In this document: positions 27,437 to 64,000 of the stretch, piece by piece | Position numbering within the stretch: the stretch's first letter is position 1 | Layout of the letters: each line of letters opens with the position of its first letter | DNA from: a virus | Direction: 5' to 3' (one strand) | Virus record (IMG/VR): IMGVR_UViG_3300023174_000042 | Location: 62,001 to 126,000 of that record | Length of the DNA: 64,000 nt | Position numbers and translations under genes: made by a program | The notes under the pieces: model-generated | The model's database searches: none | The model's input: only the letters and a program-made list of their open reading frames with translations | What the model was told of the DNA's origin: nothing

Positions 27437-27450
27437 ATTTATTGTCTTAA

Positions 27451-27981
27451 TTAACCTTTATAAGTGTTATCACCATAAGTGTTATCACCCATACGCATTA
27501 CTTTATCTGCTGTAAATTGTCCAAATCTTTTATCATAATCATCTCTCATTCTAGCCTGATCTGAAAAATCATGTGCAACTTCAGATTTTAACATTCTTTC
27601 AATTTTTTGAGGATTGTCTCCTTTGAATAATAAAACTTTTCTTTCTCTAAATCCTTCGTCTCTTGTCATATCAGTAGTATCTATACCCCAATATATTTCA
27701 CCTGTATTGTTGTCACGGTACTCTTTCATAGTAAAGAAGTTACCTTCTTGGTCACCACCAGTTGATTTTTTAACATTACCTGTTGGTGTCATTTTGTTTA
27801 TTAATAATCTATTAGTTACGTAATCATAAGCTTTCTTAACAATAGCTCCACCAAGAGCAAGTCCTCCTAATGTCATCAAAACACCTTCATTGAGGTTTTT
27901 GTTATTTTTTTGCTCCTCATTAATCACTCTTTTAACGATACGAACAAGATCTGATTCAGTTAATTTTATAATTCTTTTCAT
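27451..27981 (-). CDS. Small protein with capsid-targeting-like N-terminus
   Basis: This 176-residue protein begins MKRIIKLTESDLVRIVKRV followed by INEEQ. This N-terminal block is one I recognise as recurring on otherwise unrelated proteins of uncultured T4-like phages. It contains a VINE site and soon an LNEG site that fit the I/L-x-E rule for the T4 prohead protease. A short hydrophobic Gly-rich stretch follows (VLMTLGGLALGGAIV, residues about 34-48). The rest is polar, with a repeated GDNTYGDNTYKG end. I recognise no enzyme. I infer an internal virion protein. It is a single-gene unit with TATTTAT 19 nt upstream and a strong terminator downstream. Confidence 0.6.
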   Translation of the reverse strand: MKRIIKLTESDLVRIVKRVINEEQKNNKNLNEGVLMTLGGLALGGAIVKKAYDYVTNRLLINKMTPTGNVKKSTGGDQEGNFFTMKEYRDNNTGEIYWGIDTTDMTRDEGFRERKVLLFKGDNPQKIERMLKSEVAHDFSDQARMRDDYDKRFGQFTADKVMRMGDNTYGDNTYKG

Positions 27982-28000
27982 AACTTTTTTTAATTTACTA

Positions 28001-28007
28001 ATAAATA
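28001..28007 (-). promoter_or_regulatory. Putative late promoter element TATTTAT (27451-27981)
   Basis: ATATATTTATTAG lies 19 nt before the ATG at 27981, just after the upstream gene's terminator. Confidence 0.5.
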
Positions 28008-28020
28008 TATCAATAAAAAA

Positions 28021-28046
28021 AAAATCACTAATTTCTTAGTGATTTT
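28021..28046 (-). terminator. Intrinsic terminator after the DUF5522-like gene
   Basis: An 11-bp stem (AAAATCACTAA / TTAGTGATTTT) with a TTTC loop overlaps the TAA stop of the gene at 28036. On the - strand it is followed by a T run of about ten bases. Confidence 0.87.
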
Positions 28047-28254
28047 CTACAATTTTATTTCCTTTAACATATTTTGGTTCGTATGGACAATTTAAACATT
28101 TTGATCCACAACAAAAACCCCTTTTTATATGATAAGATTTGGTCATAACAATTTTCCCGTTTTCATTTTCGTAAAAATCAGGTTCAGGAGATTTTTTTAG
28201 TGTCTCCTGAACATATAATTGTTGTATCCAATCGTTTGATGCTTTTATTGTCAT
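28036..28254 (-). CDS. DUF5522-like Cys-rich small protein
   Basis: This 72-residue protein has the core KIVMTKSYHIKRGFCCGSKC followed by LNCPY. That matches the pattern yvfTaayHlkRGyCCgxxCrhCPY that I recall for the DUF5522 family. Four Cys (CC-x3-C-x2-C) plus a His could bind a metal. The function of the family is unknown to me. The domain is common in Bacteroidota genomes as far as I recall, so it may be host-derived. It lies 5 bases after the homing-endonuclease stop and ends in a terminator. Confidence 0.7.
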   Translation of the reverse strand: MTIKASNDWIQQLYVQETLKKSPEPDFYENENGKIVMTKSYHIKRGFCCGSKCLNCPYEPKYVKGNKIVENH

Positions 28255-28259
28255 TTGTA

Positions 28260-29039
28260 TTAAGTATTTTCTTTTTTATTTTCAACAACTAATTTAAATG
28301 TAAACATATAATAATTCTTACCTTTTTTAACACATTTATAAGGTTCACCGTTTTTAGCTTTAACTCTAACAGTATGTGCTGGAATCCCTAAATGTTTATT
28401 AACCTCAACAGCACTTTCGTATCTACCATATTCAACACCATTATTATCGTAAACAATAATATAACCTAACCATCTTCCGTTTTTATTCCCACTTTTTACT
28501 TCAGACCACAATTTCCTTTTTTCTGGATCTTCTAAACTTTTTTTTACACCCATAGATAATTTATCTTTGTGTTCTTTTGTATTTACAACTTTCTTTAAAC
28601 CATTTAAAACTTTTACCCTATAATCTTTGTTTTCCCATTTTTTTCTTGTTAAATCACTCATTTTTTTTCTATAATCATCTGTTAAATTTTTTTTTGCCGT
28701 TTCAGATAATTTTTTACGAGTAATTTCTTTTAGTTCATCACATTTGTTTGTGAATGTGTCTCCACCAGTACCACCGATAGTGTAATTATATCCATTTAAA
28801 ACTGTATCATATTGTTCTATATATTGAACTTCTAAATCGTTTATTTTATCTGAAGTTGTTTGATTGAGAATTATAAACTCAAAATTATCCCATCCATAGT
28901 GTAGAATTGCATCATAAAGTTTGTGTCTTTTTTTTCCAACCAACATTTTATGTTCGGTTAATCTTTTATTTGGTCTTTTTGTTTTTCCAATGTATAGTTT
29001 ACCATTAATTTTATTTTTTATACAATATATATATTCCAT
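28260..29039 (-). CDS. GIY-YIG homing endonuclease with NUMOD-type DNA-binding motifs
   Basis: The protein has 259 residues from ATG 29039 (263 from ATG 29051). The nuclease domain reads YIYCIKNKINGKLYIGKT (the GIY..YIG strands), with R26 and H30, and LEVQYIEQY with candidate catalytic E70. The middle holds two or three NUMOD3-like segments (SETAKKNL, MSDLTRKKW, WSEVKSGNKNGRW). The C-terminus is a NUMOD1/IENR1-like helix-turn-helix (YESAVEVNKHLGIPAHTV). Such free-standing enzymes spread by cutting unmarked alleles and often sit beside nrd genes, as here. ATG 29039 is preferred because GGGAGG lies 4 bases before it. That site is paired in a hairpin (29042-29076). Confidence 0.9.
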   Translation of the reverse strand: MEYIYCIKNKINGKLYIGKTKRPNKRLTEHKMLVGKKRHKLYDAILHYGWDNFEFIILNQTTSDKINDLEVQYIEQYDTVLNGYNYTIGGTGGDTFTNKCDELKEITRKKLSETAKKNLTDDYRKKMSDLTRKKWENKDYRVKVLNGLKKVVNTKEHKDKLSMGVKKSLEDPEKRKLWSEVKSGNKNGRWLGYIIVYDNNGVEYGRYESAVEVNKHLGIPAHTVRVKAKNGEPYKCVKKGKNYYMFTFKLVVENKKENT

Positions 29040-53138: not shown

Positions 53139-53969
53139 TTATTCATATTTAGTTTTACCTTCTTTACCAGTATGATAAATTTTTAATTTGTCTTCGTCAT
53201 TAAAATATTTTCTCATTGTTTGAACATTTTTTAGATCATCATCTGAAAAACCAATATAAGGTAAAAAATAATTACTTATTTTATTTTTCATAAATGCCTT
53301 CTCTTGAAGTTGTCTTGACAGTTTTTGAACGTAAGTCATAAACTCTGTCATTGCTTCCACTTTTAGTTTTTCAGGGTTTGCTGCCGACCCCTGACCAAAA
53401 GTAACCGGATAAAATTTACACATGTCTAAATAATATCTGATTATTTCATCATCTGTTAAGATATCTTCATCGGCTAACTCTCTATATTTCTTTAGATTTC
53501 TAACAATAGTTTTTTCGTTCAATCCGTGTTTATTTTTCTTAATTAAATTATATACCGCATTTTTTAACACACTTGGGGTATGTCCTCGTGCCGTAATGAT
53601 TGAAAAAATTGATCCTTGATTAACGGCTTCCACAAAATCGTCCCATGAAGGTCCTGTTTCTGATGACATTGCGTCTTTAACAAATTCTTTATCACCTGGA
53701 ACCTTAAAATCTCTAAACGCTTCGTCGTCAAAACCAACAATCTTGTGTCCTTTGTAATTAAAAGGTTCTTTACCAATTTCAGTTCTGTATTCAGCAAAAT
53801 CTTCAGTTGACATACCAACACTTTTTCCTTTATCGTCTTTCAAATAAATTTTGGTCGGCATATACATTAAGTTATCATCCCAATCAAAAGCATAATACTT
53901 CATTGTTGGTTTTAACTGATCACTAATAATTTCTGTAATTATATCTTTTACAAAAGTTTTGTAATTCAT
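53139..53969 (-). CDS. HAD-superfamily phosphatase-like protein
   Basis: This 276-residue protein has HAD motif I, YYAFDWDDNL (D29 nucleophile, D31 acid/base), motif II SIITARGHTP (T126), and a late acidic motif GFSDDDLKN (about 242). The HAD class removes phosphate from nucleotides, sugars or polynucleotide 3' ends; the substrate is unknown. It has an N-terminal KDIITEIIS segment with an I-x-E site near residue 13. It lies between the sheath and tube genes, an unusual place for an enzyme. TATTTAT lies 4 nt before the ATG. There is no obvious terminator after it. Confidence 0.75.
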   Translation of the reverse strand: MNYKTFVKDIITEIISDQLKPTMKYYAFDWDDNLMYMPTKIYLKDDKGKSVGMSTEDFAEYRTEIGKEPFNYKGHKIVGFDDEAFRDFKVPGDKEFVKDAMSSETGPSWDDFVEAVNQGSIFSIITARGHTPSVLKNAVYNLIKKNKHGLNEKTIVRNLKKYRELADEDILTDDEIIRYYLDMCKFYPVTFGQGSAANPEKLKVEAMTEFMTYVQKLSRQLQEKAFMKNKISNYFLPYIGFSDDDLKNVQTMRKYFNDEDKLKIYHTGKEGKTKYE

Positions 53970-59242: not shown

Positions 59243-59259
59243 AAAAAAGGTTTTTCTTG

Positions 59260-59266
59260 ATAAATA
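59260..59266 (-). promoter_or_regulatory. Putative late promoter element TATTTAT (tail operon start)
   Basis: GTATATTTATCAA lies 17 nt before the ATG at 59242, in the gap between divergent genes. Confidence 0.5.
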
Positions 59267-59301
59267 TACAATTATTGATTATCTTTTTTAAAAGACTAAC
59301 T

Positions 59302-61062
59302 TTGGAAACTCAAAAGTCGCTTATAGAGTATAAAGCCATAGATATACTTGCCACTTATAGTGGTTCCAATAACTATATATTATATTTAAAAAACAAAAAA
59401 GAGTCTTCTTCAAAATTTTTTCCAACAAGAACACAAGCAGAATACATCGTAAATTATTCAAACACTGTTCCCAAAATCGCAAGAAAATGGGTTGAATTGG
59501 ATTCGTATTTTTCTAAGAAATTTGCGGAGGAAAAATATTTTATACAAACACCAAAAGAAATTTATATTGAGAAGTTATTAGTAGAAAAAGAAAAATCTTA
59601 TCATGTTTGGGCTAAATTTTTTGAAAAAGATCAACTATCGGAGTTTTGGATACCAAAATCCGCTCTTATTAAAAGTCATAACACCCAATCTGTTAATGTT
59701 GATTATTTGAAATATTCACATAGACCTCCTTTAGATCATCAAAAAATAGCAATTGAAAAACTAGCAGGGTCTAAAAGATTTATTTTGGCAGACGACATGG
59801 GTTTGGGGAAAACCACATCAACAATTATTGCGGCTCTTGAGACCGGAGCAAAAAAAATATTAATTGTTTGTCCTGCGTCTTTAAAGATAAATTGGCAAAG
59901 AGAAATCGAAAATTATTCCAATAGACCAGTTTTTATCGCAGAAGGAAAAAAATTTTCAACGGACCATGATTTTGTAATAATAAATTATGACATCTTAAAA
60001 AACTTTCATGACACAAAAGAAAAAGAAAATTCGTTATTAGAAAAATCTAATTTTGATTTAGTAATACTTGATGAAGCCCACATGATATCAAATGGTCAGG
60101 CTCAAAGAACAAAAATTATAAATAGTTTTGTAAAAAAAATAGATAAAGTTTGGTTATTAACAGGAACACCAATGACATCTCGACCTATGAATTATTATAA
60201 TCTATTAAACATAATAGAAAGTCCTGTTGCTCAAAATTGGAAGGCTTATGCGATTCGTTATTGTCAGGGATTTCAGTTTACGGCTGGTAAAAGAAAAGTA
60301 TGGAATGTATCGGGAGCGTCTAATTTAGAAGAATTAAGAGATAGAACTTCAAAACAAATATTAAGAAGACTTAAAGAAGATGTGTTAGATCTACCTGACA
60401 AAATTATAACACCAGTTTATTTGAGATTGAAATCAAAAGAATACGAAGAACTGATGGGTGATTATTATGATTGGTATGATAAAAACCCCGAAGAGTCATC
60501 ATCACTTACGGTTCAGTTTTCAAAGTTAATGAAAGTTAGAAAAGTAATCGCGAATGAAAAAACAAAACAAACTATTGAGTTTGCTGAAAACATAATAGAT
60601 CAAGGAAAAAAAGTTATTATATTTACAAACTTCACAGACACACTTCAGACAATACACCATCATTTTGGAAAACAATCTGTTTATCTTGACGGAAGTTGTT
60701 CTAATTCAGTTCGCCAACAAGCCGTCGACTTATTTCAAAATGATGAAAAAATTAAAGTCTTTGTTGGAAATTTAAAAGCGGCGGGAGTTGGTTTAACTCT
60801 AACAAGAGCAGAGGCGGTTATTATGAACGACTTATCTTTTGTTCCCGCAGAACATGCGCAAGCCGAGGACAGAGCATATCGTTATGGTCAAAAATCAAAC
60901 GTATTGGTTTATTATCCTTTGTTTGAAAATACTATTGAAGGGGTTATTTATGATATATTAAATAAGAAAAAACAAATCATTAGAACCGTTATGGGTGATG
61001 AAATACAAGAAAATGTTGGTGATGTTGCCGAGGAAATATTAAATCTAATCAACAAAAGGTGA
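59302..61062 (+). CDS. SNF2-family DNA helicase/translocase
   Basis: The protein has 586 residues from TTG 59302; the frame is open back to TTG 59257. It has SNF2 motifs: Walker A LADDMGLGKTTSTIIAAL, Ia ILIVCPASLKINW, DEAH box LVILDEAHMISNGQA, LLTGTPMTSRP, then helicase C motifs (YLDGSCSNSVRQQAVDLF; VGNLKAAGVGLTLTRAE; AQAEDRAYRYGQ). SNF2 translocases act on dsDNA in repair, fork remodelling or anti-defence; T4 uses UvsW for fork regression. No ATG lies before motif I, so a non-ATG start is needed. The 59302 TTG is preferred because upstream residues are hydrophobic and AT-biased. It is divergent from the tail operon, and I see no TATTTAT in its direction. Confidence 0.88.
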   Translation: METQKSLIEYKAIDILATYSGSNNYILYLKNKKESSSKFFPTRTQAEYIVNYSNTVPKIARKWVELDSYFSKKFAEEKYFIQTPKEIYIEKLLVEKEKSYHVWAKFFEKDQLSEFWIPKSALIKSHNTQSVNVDYLKYSHRPPLDHQKIAIEKLAGSKRFILADDMGLGKTTSTIIAALETGAKKILIVCPASLKINWQREIENYSNRPVFIAEGKKFSTDHDFVIINYDILKNFHDTKEKENSLLEKSNFDLVILDEAHMISNGQAQRTKIINSFVKKIDKVWLLTGTPMTSRPMNYYNLLNIIESPVAQNWKAYAIRYCQGFQFTAGKRKVWNVSGASNLEELRDRTSKQILRRLKEDVLDLPDKIITPVYLRLKSKEYEELMGDYYDWYDKNPEESSSLTVQFSKLMKVRKVIANEKTKQTIEFAENIIDQGKKVIIFTNFTDTLQTIHHHFGKQSVYLDGSCSNSVRQQAVDLFQNDEKIKVFVGNLKAAGVGLTLTRAEAVIMNDLSFVPAEHAQAEDRAYRYGQKSNVLVYYPLFENTIEGVIYDILNKKKQIIRTVMGDEIQENVGDVAEEILNLINKR

Positions 61063-61995: not shown

Positions 61996-62002
61996 TATTT
62001 AT
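61996..62002 (+). promoter_or_regulatory. Putative late promoter element TATTTAT (peptidase-SOD fusion)
   Basis: AATATTTATC ends 4 nt before the ATG at 62007. The wider site is palindromic (ATAAATATTTAT). Confidence 0.5.
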
Positions 62003-62006
62003 CATT

Positions 62007-64000
62007 ATGAAAGTATCATTTCAATACGAAAATAAAGACTTTAAGAAATATTCAAATTTTGTTAACAGGTTTATAAAACTCCTACAAAAAGAATTTCCTT
62101 TAAAAAACGATGTAAAAATCTTTTTTTTAAATGACAAAAAGGGGGAAATGTCCACTGGAAGTAGAATGCCAAATAACATAATTAAGGTTTTGGTCGCCAA
62201 CAGATTAAATCGCGACATTATGAGAACTTTGGCTCACGAATGGGTTCATGAATATCAAATGGATGTTCAGAAAAGAAAACAAGGTCCTAATATTGGTGGT
62301 AAAAACGAAGATGAAGCAAATGCGTTTGCTGGTAGACTTATTAAAATGTTTGAAAAAGACAACCCTAACTTAGAGGAAATGATGTATGAACAAAAAGGTA
62401 TCAGAGGTAAAATTAGTTTAATTAACGAAGAAATAATAACTGAAGAGAAAAAAACGATAAAAGAAAACTTTTTGGTTGAGATGAAAAAAATTGGAATTGA
62501 AAAATTACCATATTCATACTCTTCCTTGTCAAGATTTATTGATTCTAAAACAATGAACGTCCATTACAATAAACATTACAAAGGATATGTTGACAAATTA
62601 AATAAAGCCATAAAAAAAATTGATGGAGATATGGATTTAGAAGAAATTATTAGATCCATATCAAAATTTGACAAAAATATTAGAAATAACGCAGGAGGTT
62701 CTTTTAATCACGCTTTATTTTGGAAAATGTTGTCACCAAAAAAACAATTACCAAAAGGGGAAATTCTTAAAAAGATAAACAAAGACTTTGGAAACATAAA
62801 AAAAATGAAAGACGAGTTTAATCAAGCGGCAAAAGATCGTTTTGGATCAGGTTGGGCTTGGTTATACCTTAGCAAAGACGGAAAATTGAAAATAATGTCC
62901 ACCCCAAATCAGGATAATCCACTTATGAATGTTGTTAAAAAAGGTGGATTTCCATTATTGGGTTTAGATGTTTGGGAACATGCTTATTATTTGAAATATC
63001 AAAACAAACGAGATGAATATATCAATAACTTTTGGAATGTTGTAAATTGGGAGTTTGTAAATGATTTATATTTGTCAAAAACAAAAAAAGAAAACATTAA
63101 AGAAAATGTTGAGTCTAAAGAAATTATAAATGAGATCAGCTCAACATTTGCATTTCCATACACAGCAAAACAATTAAGAGAATTAATTCATTCGCAGTAT
63201 GTAGGATGCCATGGTCAACAATATAAAAATGGATGTATAGGAAAGATCCAAACAAAAAAATGTAAAACAGATATTGGTGTTTTAGGCGGTGATTATGCAG
63301 AAAAAAAACACGGAGGAACAAGTCAATGGTCTGTAATCAATCGTTTTGACACCAATGGCAAAGTCAAAAAAGAGATTTACAATATTTGGCAAGAAGAAAC
63401 AGAAGGAGTAACAGATTTTAAAACATGGATTAAAGAACATGCATACGATCTTTTTTCAAATGAAGGAATGTATTTAGATAGATTGGCCGAAATAAACGTT
63501 GGGACTATAGAAATTGGTAAAGAAAATGAGGGATACGCAACAAGTATCATCAAACAAATATATAAATTAAATCCTGATGAAGAAGGTATAACTTACGAAA
63601 TATATGAACATTGTTCGGGAGATGTTAATGATAGAAAAAAAGGTCAAGATATAGTTTTAAAAATTAAAGGTCACGACACAATTTATTTTCAAGTCAAACC
63701 ATTTTTAAATCAAAATAACGATATTCAATATTTTGATGGTGGAGATAGAGGACATTATTTCAAAGTAAATTCTTGGAACACAAACAAAAAATATAAAGAA
63801 GAAAATGTTGATGTAATAGTGTATGTTGATAGATCTGAACAAAAATATATTATGTTTAGAAACGATCATAGTAAAATTTTAACAATAGGAACCTCAAGAA
63901 AAAACATACCATATTTTATATATTATTATGAAATGCCGCTCAAAAGTAATTTCCAAGTTCCATTACAAAAAGAAACATCAAGTGCTCCCGTAAAACAATT
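62007..64000 (+). CDS. HExxH peptidase - Mn-type superoxide dismutase - nuclease-like fusion (open at window end)
   Basis: The frame is open for 664 codons to the window end. Residues 1-115 form a zinc-peptidase-like domain with HEWVH (77-81) and, 22 residues on, NEDEANAFAGRL, a glutamate helix like that of M78/ImmA peptidases. Residues 166-358 are an Fe/Mn superoxide dismutase with all four ligands: H186, H235, D321 and H325 (DVWEHAYY). The GGSFNH and NQDNPLM blocks are Mn-type. Residues 375-664 include a Cys cluster and a PD-(D/E)XK-like D548 with Q562-V-K564. Linkers LINEEIITEE and EIINEIS fit I/L-x-E cleavage sites. TATTTAT lies 4 nt before the ATG. A three-domain fusion of this kind is unfamiliar to me. 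Confidence 0.85.
   Translation, partial: MKVSFQYENKDFKKYSNFVNRFIKLLQKEFPLKNDVKIFFLNDKKGEMSTGSRMPNNIIKVLVANRLNRDIMRTLAHEWVHEYQMDVQKRKQGPNIGGKNEDEANAFAGRLIKMFEKDNPNLEEMMYEQKGIRGKISLINEEIITEEKKTIKENFLVEMKKIGIEKLPYSYSSLSRFIDSKTMNVHYNKHYKGYVDKLNKAIKKIDGDMDLEEIIRSISKFDKNIRNNAGGSFNHALFWKMLSPKKQLPKGEILKKINKDFGNIKKMKDEFNQAAKDRFGSGWAWLYLSKDGKLKIMSTPNQDNPLMNVVKKGGFPLLGLDVWEHAYYLKYQNKRDEYINNFWNVVNWEFVNDLYLSKTKKENIKENVESKEIINEISSTFAFPYTAKQLRELIHSQYVGCHGQQYKNGCIGKIQTKKCKTDIGVLGGDYAEKKHGGTSQWSVINRFDTNGKVKKEIYNIWQEETEGVTDFKTWIKEHAYDLFSNEGMYLDRLAEINVGTIEIGKENEGYATSIIKQIYKLNPDEEGITYEIYEHCSGDVNDRKKGQDIVLKIKGHDTIYFQVKPFLNQNNDIQYFDGGDRGHYFKVNSWNTNKKYKEENVDVIVYVDRSEQKYIMFRNDHSKILTIGTSRKNIPYFIYYYEMPLKSNFQVPLQKETSSAPVKQ

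Follow-up and report, generated by a model that had tools for sequence, protein, structure and literature searches.

The stretch analysed here, which we call the window, comprises 64,000 nucleotides, corresponding to positions 62001-126000 of a virus record of 272,576 bp. At its 3' end lies a single open reading frame (ORF) whose product begins with a Wss1/SprT-like zincin, continues with a complete superoxide dismutase (SOD) of the Mn type and ends with a PD-(D/E)XK-like nuclease domain. The gene and its surroundings show the following features (window positions unless the record is named, with the basis in brackets).

59257..61062, plus strand: SNF2-family helicase, the conserved gene upstream by which the locus can be recognised (Pfam, synteny)
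61996..62002, plus strand: TATTTAT, a promoter-like motif separated from the start codon by 4 nt (genome-wide enrichment)
62007..64000, plus strand, continuing past the window to record position 126151 (= window 64151): whole ORF, 714 aa (translation of the record)
62007..62390, plus strand: zincin-type metallopeptidase domain, residues 1-128 (AlphaFold2 model, fold match, invariant motif)
62391..62480, plus strand: linker 1, residues 129-158, with three conserved L/I-x-E sites (homologue alignment)
62418..62429, plus strand: site A, LINE, residues 138-141, the same tetrapeptide as the predicted capsid maturation site (alignment)
62433..62444, plus strand: site B, IITE, residues 143-146 (alignment)
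62472..62480, plus strand: site C, LVE, residues 156-158, immediately before M159 (conservation)
62481..63080, plus strand: Mn-type SOD, residues 159-358 (Pfam, PDB SOD matches, ligands)
63081..63152, plus strand: linker 2, residues 359-382, with IKE (364-366) and IINE (373-376) (alignment)
63123..63134, plus strand: site D, IINE, residues 373-376 (alignment)
63153..64000, cut by the window end, plus strand: tail class C1, PD-(D/E)XK-like nuclease domain, residues 383-714 (AlphaFold2 and fold match)

A first-pass annotation of the window had described one uninterrupted frame joining a peptidase, a dismutase and a nuclease-like domain, and had advised reading on to the true stop. The frame, which has no internal stop from the ATG at 62007, is open to the window end and terminates 151 bases beyond it, at record position 126151, and all the residues that had been singled out are in place, namely H77-E78-W-V-H81, EDEANAFA (101-108), H186, H235, D321, H325, D548, Q562-V-K564, LINE (138-141), IITE (143-146) and IINE (373-376). 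The three-domain architecture is seen again, at a length of 700-740 aa, in dozens of independent contigs, and because it recurs in full length in so many of them, an assembly or frameshift artefact is ruled out. A search of isolate phages for the three-domain architecture returned none, only matches to the SOD region. One otherwise typical family member (L005/L067, contig IMGVR_UViG_3300032305_001605) has an in-frame stop within the SOD, which is either a sequencing error or a real inactivation.

The N-terminal domain was modelled by AlphaFold2 with a pLDDT of 93.8 for residues 1-128, and its best PDB fold in Foldseek is that of yeast Wss1, an SprT-like zinc protease (prob 1.00, TM 0.60, E=0.008). 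It carries the HExxH motif as H77-E-W-V-H81, with E101 as the candidate for what we infer to be the third metal ligand, and H77, E78, H81 and E101 do not vary among the 96 homologues that possess the domain. Individual family members give weak matches, below the cut-off, to several zincin families in Pfam, and a profile of the domain found nothing significant among PDB chain sequences. The Foldseek E-value of about 0.008 for this fold, as for that of the C-terminal domain below, is suggestive rather than decisive. The peptidase domain is also present alone, as short proteins, in other contexts. Its task may lie in the host cell, or it may contribute to processing, a part that has been suggested for other polyvalent proteins (PMC5512222).

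The SOD assignment rests on Pfam Sod_Fe_C (E=1e-41) and Sod_Fe_N (E=2e-21), which at 141 and 77 bits both exceed their curated cut-offs of 20.9 and 27, and on PDB MnSODs that match down to E=1e-64. Its ligands, three His and one Asp (H186, H235, D321 and H325), are kept in 97 of 97 homologues. The nearest cellular SODs are mostly from Bacteroidota and reach about 55% identity, whereas the best 80 phage copies are 72-91% identical to the window copy, which rules out a recent host origin. Given these cellular neighbours, and given that the nearest isolate capsid proteins include those of Flavobacterium phages, the phage, a large T4-like one, likely infects Bacteroidota.

For the C-terminal domain, termed C1, the AlphaFold2 model of residues 383-714 is of fair quality (pLDDT 83.7). 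Ranks 1-4 of its PDB fold matches are the four chains of I-Ssp6803I, a homing endonuclease of the PD-(D/E)XK type (prob 0.95-0.99, E about 0.01), and the SPARDA DREN nuclease stands further down the same list. DREN resembles I-Ssp6803I and has the catalytic residues D41, Q60 and K62 (PMC12205087), of which D548, Q562 and K564 of C1 are the counterparts; together with E508 these three residues are invariant across 19 C1 domains, with identity down to 35%. C1 has the D...Q-x-K pattern of these D-QxK-type PD-(D/E)XK nucleases and, as its model predicts, may have their fold, but differs from them in its extra N- and C-terminal parts and in having no sequence-level family match: the C-terminal tails matched no PHROG or Pfam family, and a C1 profile found nothing significant among PDB chain sequences. 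These results support the three domain identities originally proposed.

The family is widespread, scans of IMG/VR having yielded 108 distinct homologous proteins. Nearly all homologues with an SOD carry the peptidase domain in front of it. Behind it the chain either ends or goes on into a tail, for which there are at least four unrelated classes; the window type, C1, was found in 34 proteins, C2 in 27, C3 in 12 and C4 in 2, with a further, fifth type in L119/L120. The peptidase-SOD core is the constant part of the family and the C-terminal tail the variable one; a core tree built from 89 proteins implies some 25 switches of tail class, and near-identical cores can bear different tails (C2 in L143, C1 in L145). 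The tail is an exchangeable slot, probably for cargo, an aspect absent from the earlier reading. The motif RG-x-D/E-FE ... P-x-D ... SCK of C3 is nearly or fully invariant. In L119 (3347-4960) an SOD without a peptidase is fused to the fifth tail type, which carries GID...QIK in its end part, and by these motifs both C3 and the L119 tail look like PD-(D/E)XK nucleases.

As far as the contigs reach, the core-bearing loci that we examined share one gene order: sheath, two genes, SNF2 helicase, polyprotein gene, head-tail adaptor, a small gene and DNA polymerase. The TATTTAT motif upstream of the window gene is about 13-fold concentrated in front of genes, with 100 of its 302 genome copies, or about one third, lying no more than 45 nt upstream of one, and with many of these copies only 4-5 nt away from the start codon. 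It precedes the genes for the gp21-type protease, portal, terL (terminase), sheath and adaptor as well as the polyprotein gene, and is absent upstream of the DNA polymerase; it was not found directly before the capsid protein gene, and the scaffold-like gene ahead of that gene has it. This promoter-like motif is a probable phage promoter with very short leaders, and the polyprotein gene would be expressed late. The position between tail-sheath-side genes and the head-tail adaptor would also suit a structural or assembly protein of the neck or tail region with enzymatically dead domains, a reading that we regard as very improbable, as the peptidase and SOD ligands and the C1 nuclease core are all invariant, and the tail, unlike a structural part, is dispensable and often swapped.

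The first-pass annotation had further proposed that the linkers contain cleavage sites of a T4-type prohead protease. The genome does encode a protease of the gp21 family (record positions 184049-184774; PF03420, E=1e-23; PHROG head maturation protease, E=1e-42), and the stretch FLINE/ASSDG of its major capsid protein aligns with SFLTE/AEIGG of T4 gp23, from which gp21 removes 65 residues (PMC9958956). Since T4 gp21 cuts after L/I-X-E (PMC9026906), this alignment makes LINE a credible cleavage site in the present phage. In linker 1, at least three [IL]xE motifs fall within 35 aa in 64 of 69 distinct linkers, compared with about 1% of internal proteome windows, and the total of 231 such motifs is about two-fold that of shuffled sequences (109+/-8), although these linkers are homologous and hence not independent. 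Sites A-C all keep I/L at P3 and E at P1, whereas their P2 columns belong to the most variable ones, as the L/I-x-E rule would predict. Site C (L156-V-E158), a junction site beyond those first noted, has Glu at P1 in 97 of 97 homologues and I, L or V at P3 in 69 of 69 distinct linkers, and it adjoins M159, the apparent native start of the SOD. In linker 2, the motif [IL][NTS]E is found ahead of 19/22 C1, 16/19 C2, 9/10 C3 and 2/2 C4 tails against a background of 6%, and because the tails are unrelated, it is not simply due to shared ancestry. Proteins without a tail terminate just ahead of the first linker-2 site. The prohead-protease reading of the linkers is supported by the presence of the protease, by the capsid LINE site and by the conservation of the sites in homologues and across unrelated tails.

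These data also bear on two other readings of the chain. It might be a stable multidomain enzyme of the infected cell, serving auxiliary metabolism or host takeover and never packaged or cut, in which the linkers are charged helical spacers whose motifs stem from composition and ancestry. The residues I, L, E and K do abound in linker 1, whose overall likeness to the genome's own set of leaders does not exceed what composition explains (mean z 0.5), the motif alone doing so; the idea that linker 1 is a recognisable copy of N-terminal leaders accordingly found no support beyond composition. Standalone SODs also exist in other large phages, one example being that of Vibrio phage 2.275.O, which lies beside topoisomerase genes. 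We nevertheless consider a stable enzyme unlikely, as the motif count in linker 1 exceeds shuffles of the same residues, P3 and P1 are held at three sites where P2 is free, the linker-2 motif precedes four unrelated tails, and both the locus and the upstream TATTTAT are those of virion genes. Alternatively, the protein might be a polyvalent protein that processes itself, its N-terminal zincin freeing the dismutase and the nuclease before packaging or in the host without involvement of the prohead protease. There are known examples of packaged phage proteins in which a zincin is one of several domains, autoprocessing has been proposed for DdrB of phage P1 (PMC5512222), and here the HExxH+E set on a predicted Wss1-like fold is intact wherever the N domain exists. 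However, the junction motifs agree with the L/I-x-E rule of gp21 and with the site in this phage's capsid protein, and L119, which has no peptidase, still retains the linker-1 stretch before its SOD together with the P1 Glu. Moreover, we know of no Glu-specific rule for zincins of the Wss1-like fold, and self-processing seems to us equally doubtful.

Relatives in which the parts are separate genes suggest how the chain may have been assembled. In L051, three separate genes come after the tail that is fused to the SOD; they are closely related to this tail and start with MKIIITENQSDKIN, and the fused junction reads KNIITENQSDKIN. The same pattern is seen in L212, the separate neighbours in the two loci starting MKIIITENQSDKIN.../MKIIISESQYKLIKENVSLKEK... 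and matching linker 2 and the tail of the fused copy, so that in two relatives linker 2 has homologues in the leaders of genes that stand alone. L119/L120 encode C1 as a separate gene with the leader MKYIFTESQLDILKNKILINE, and their SOD without peptidase has the linker-1 stretch as its N-terminus; a leader-like N-terminus on the SOD protein is found only in relatives such as L119. The window's own genome also holds, outside the window, a standalone relative of C1 at record positions 27438-28334 (L080:7438-8334), a protein of 299 aa that starts with the leader-like MNSLHEDIRRIKKLMNLLEGEQ, shares 35% identity with the C1 domain over 144 aa (E 2e-15) and is a candidate for a second nuclease-type cargo protein. 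On account of the relatives' separate genes and of this protein, the tails look like independent proteins with leaders of their own that have been joined in frame, and the split and standalone versions lend weight to the proposal of a polyprotein.

Leader-like N-termini, which the earlier reading lacked, are carried by dozens of further proteins of this phage. The leader-like motif [IL][NTSK]E is genome-wide 3.1-fold denser in the first 27 residues than internally (p=8e-17), and 74 of 294 predicted proteins have such a motif in their first 30 residues. TATTTAT lies upstream of 44 of these 74 leader genes and of 53 of the 220 others (p=5e-8). The genome further contains runs of different small proteins with near-identical N-termini (MKRIIRLTESDLARIVRRVINEE..., MKELIRHILKEET..., MNLQEQIRRILKEET...) ending in L/I-x-E, which are candidate head-targeting leaders, at the following positions.

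Record 234155-238341, outside the window: run of small proteins with shared N-termini
Record 240033-248089, outside the window: run of small proteins with shared N-termini
Window 27454-27981: run of small proteins with shared N-termini

Beside the tail sheath gene, at window positions 53142-53969, lies a further leader-bearing protein (MNYKTFVKDIITEIISDQ...) whose FDWDDNL motif is reminiscent of HAD phosphatases.

The sequence and comparative evidence for a polyprotein is strong, and in our judgement the protein is probably head cargo of a T4-like phage that is cut by the prohead protease, with packaging, cleavage, ejection and activity deduced from the genes. According to this model, a late gene would yield several enzymes in one chain, namely a zinc-peptidase, an SOD and an exchangeable nuclease-like end, and the chain would enter the prohead core. 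There the gp21-type protease would cut the L/I-x-E sites of both linkers, dividing the chain into two or three proteins and releasing an SOD whose N-terminus is the native one, along with the tail as a protein of its own. The freed enzymes would then be ejected with the DNA, as T4 internal proteins are, and in their likeliest role the dismutase would limit superoxide damage as infection starts and the nuclease would attack host or rival DNA. Cargo genes that once stood alone with leaders of their own were probably fused in frame to create the tail slot, and such fusions probably also refill it. The fuller version of this model, in which T4-like phages of probable Bacteroidota hosts join a fixed peptidase-dismutase core to a rapidly exchanged effector slot made of fused leader-tagged genes and the prohead protease takes the chain apart inside the head, so that one gene delivers several enzymes, including the SOD, to the next host, seems to us evenly poised between right and wrong. 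Its targeting step faces one difficulty: the capsid targeting sequences of T4 are N-terminal (PMC9026906), whereas the N-terminus of the polyprotein is the peptidase domain, with no leader ahead of it and the leader-like stretch internal, and linker 1 is no more like the genome's leaders than composition explains; both points count against the model.

Comparison with known systems places the polyprotein between several of them. The T4 proteins IPI-III and Alt have a capsid targeting sequence, are cleaved by gp21 and are ejected with the DNA, and the present system resembles them in its gp21-family protease, its L/I-x-E sites, its late virion-gene setting and a cargo that varies among close relatives. 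However, each T4 cargo is single with a short N-terminal propeptide, a trait of internal head proteins that the polyprotein lacks, whereas here three enzymes are chained with internal sites. Polyvalent proteins, described by Iyer et al. 2017 (PMC5512222), likewise combine a zincin and a nuclease among several enzymatic domains beside virion genes, and the present protein has, as they do, at least two enzymatic domains including a metallopeptidase in that setting. Superoxide is not mentioned in that work, which attributes processing to the metallopeptidase; here, prohead-protease sites stand at the junctions, and one fixed core is joined to one exchangeable end. The virion of chlorovirus PBCV-1 packages a Cu/Zn SOD and restriction endonucleases (PMC7019647) and so unites SOD and DNA-cutting enzymes in one particle, a precedent for the pairing proposed here; PBCV-1 is, however, a eukaryotic algal virus with a Cu/Zn SOD and separate genes, whereas ours is a phage with an Mn-type SOD fused to nuclease-like domains. 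Lastly, the hypothetical protein gp223 of Pseudomonas phage PA5oct (L328:2453-3001) is a phage Fe/Mn-SOD homologue that is divergent but keeps the ligands, and its record carries the note 'ESI-MS/MS', which suggests detection in the particle proteome; unlike the window protein it is standalone, shortened and 30% identical, with no peptidase or nuclease fused.

The ingredients, namely internal head proteins, polyvalent proteins, viral SODs and PD-(D/E)XK nucleases, are thus each known. A phage-encoded or packaged SOD polyprotein was not found in the open literature, most subscription journals lying outside that scope, and neither was their combination in a head-protease-cleavable enzyme polyprotein whose peptidase-dismutase core is fixed while its effector slot is swapped. 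Cleavable polyproteins are a familiar strategy of RNA viruses. If our model is true, a polyprotein of this kind supplies the enzymes with which a phage head is loaded, which we have not found described for T4-type head cargo. A sequence rule, namely a leader or linker with L/I-x-E together with a gp21 homologue, would predict injected proteins and would reach the dozens of proteins with leader-like N-termini in this phage. The model would also raise the question of whether superoxide limits early infection, prompting phages to bring a dismutase, and the exchange of nuclease-like tails suggests a rapid arms race in which the DNA of the host or of rivals is at stake.
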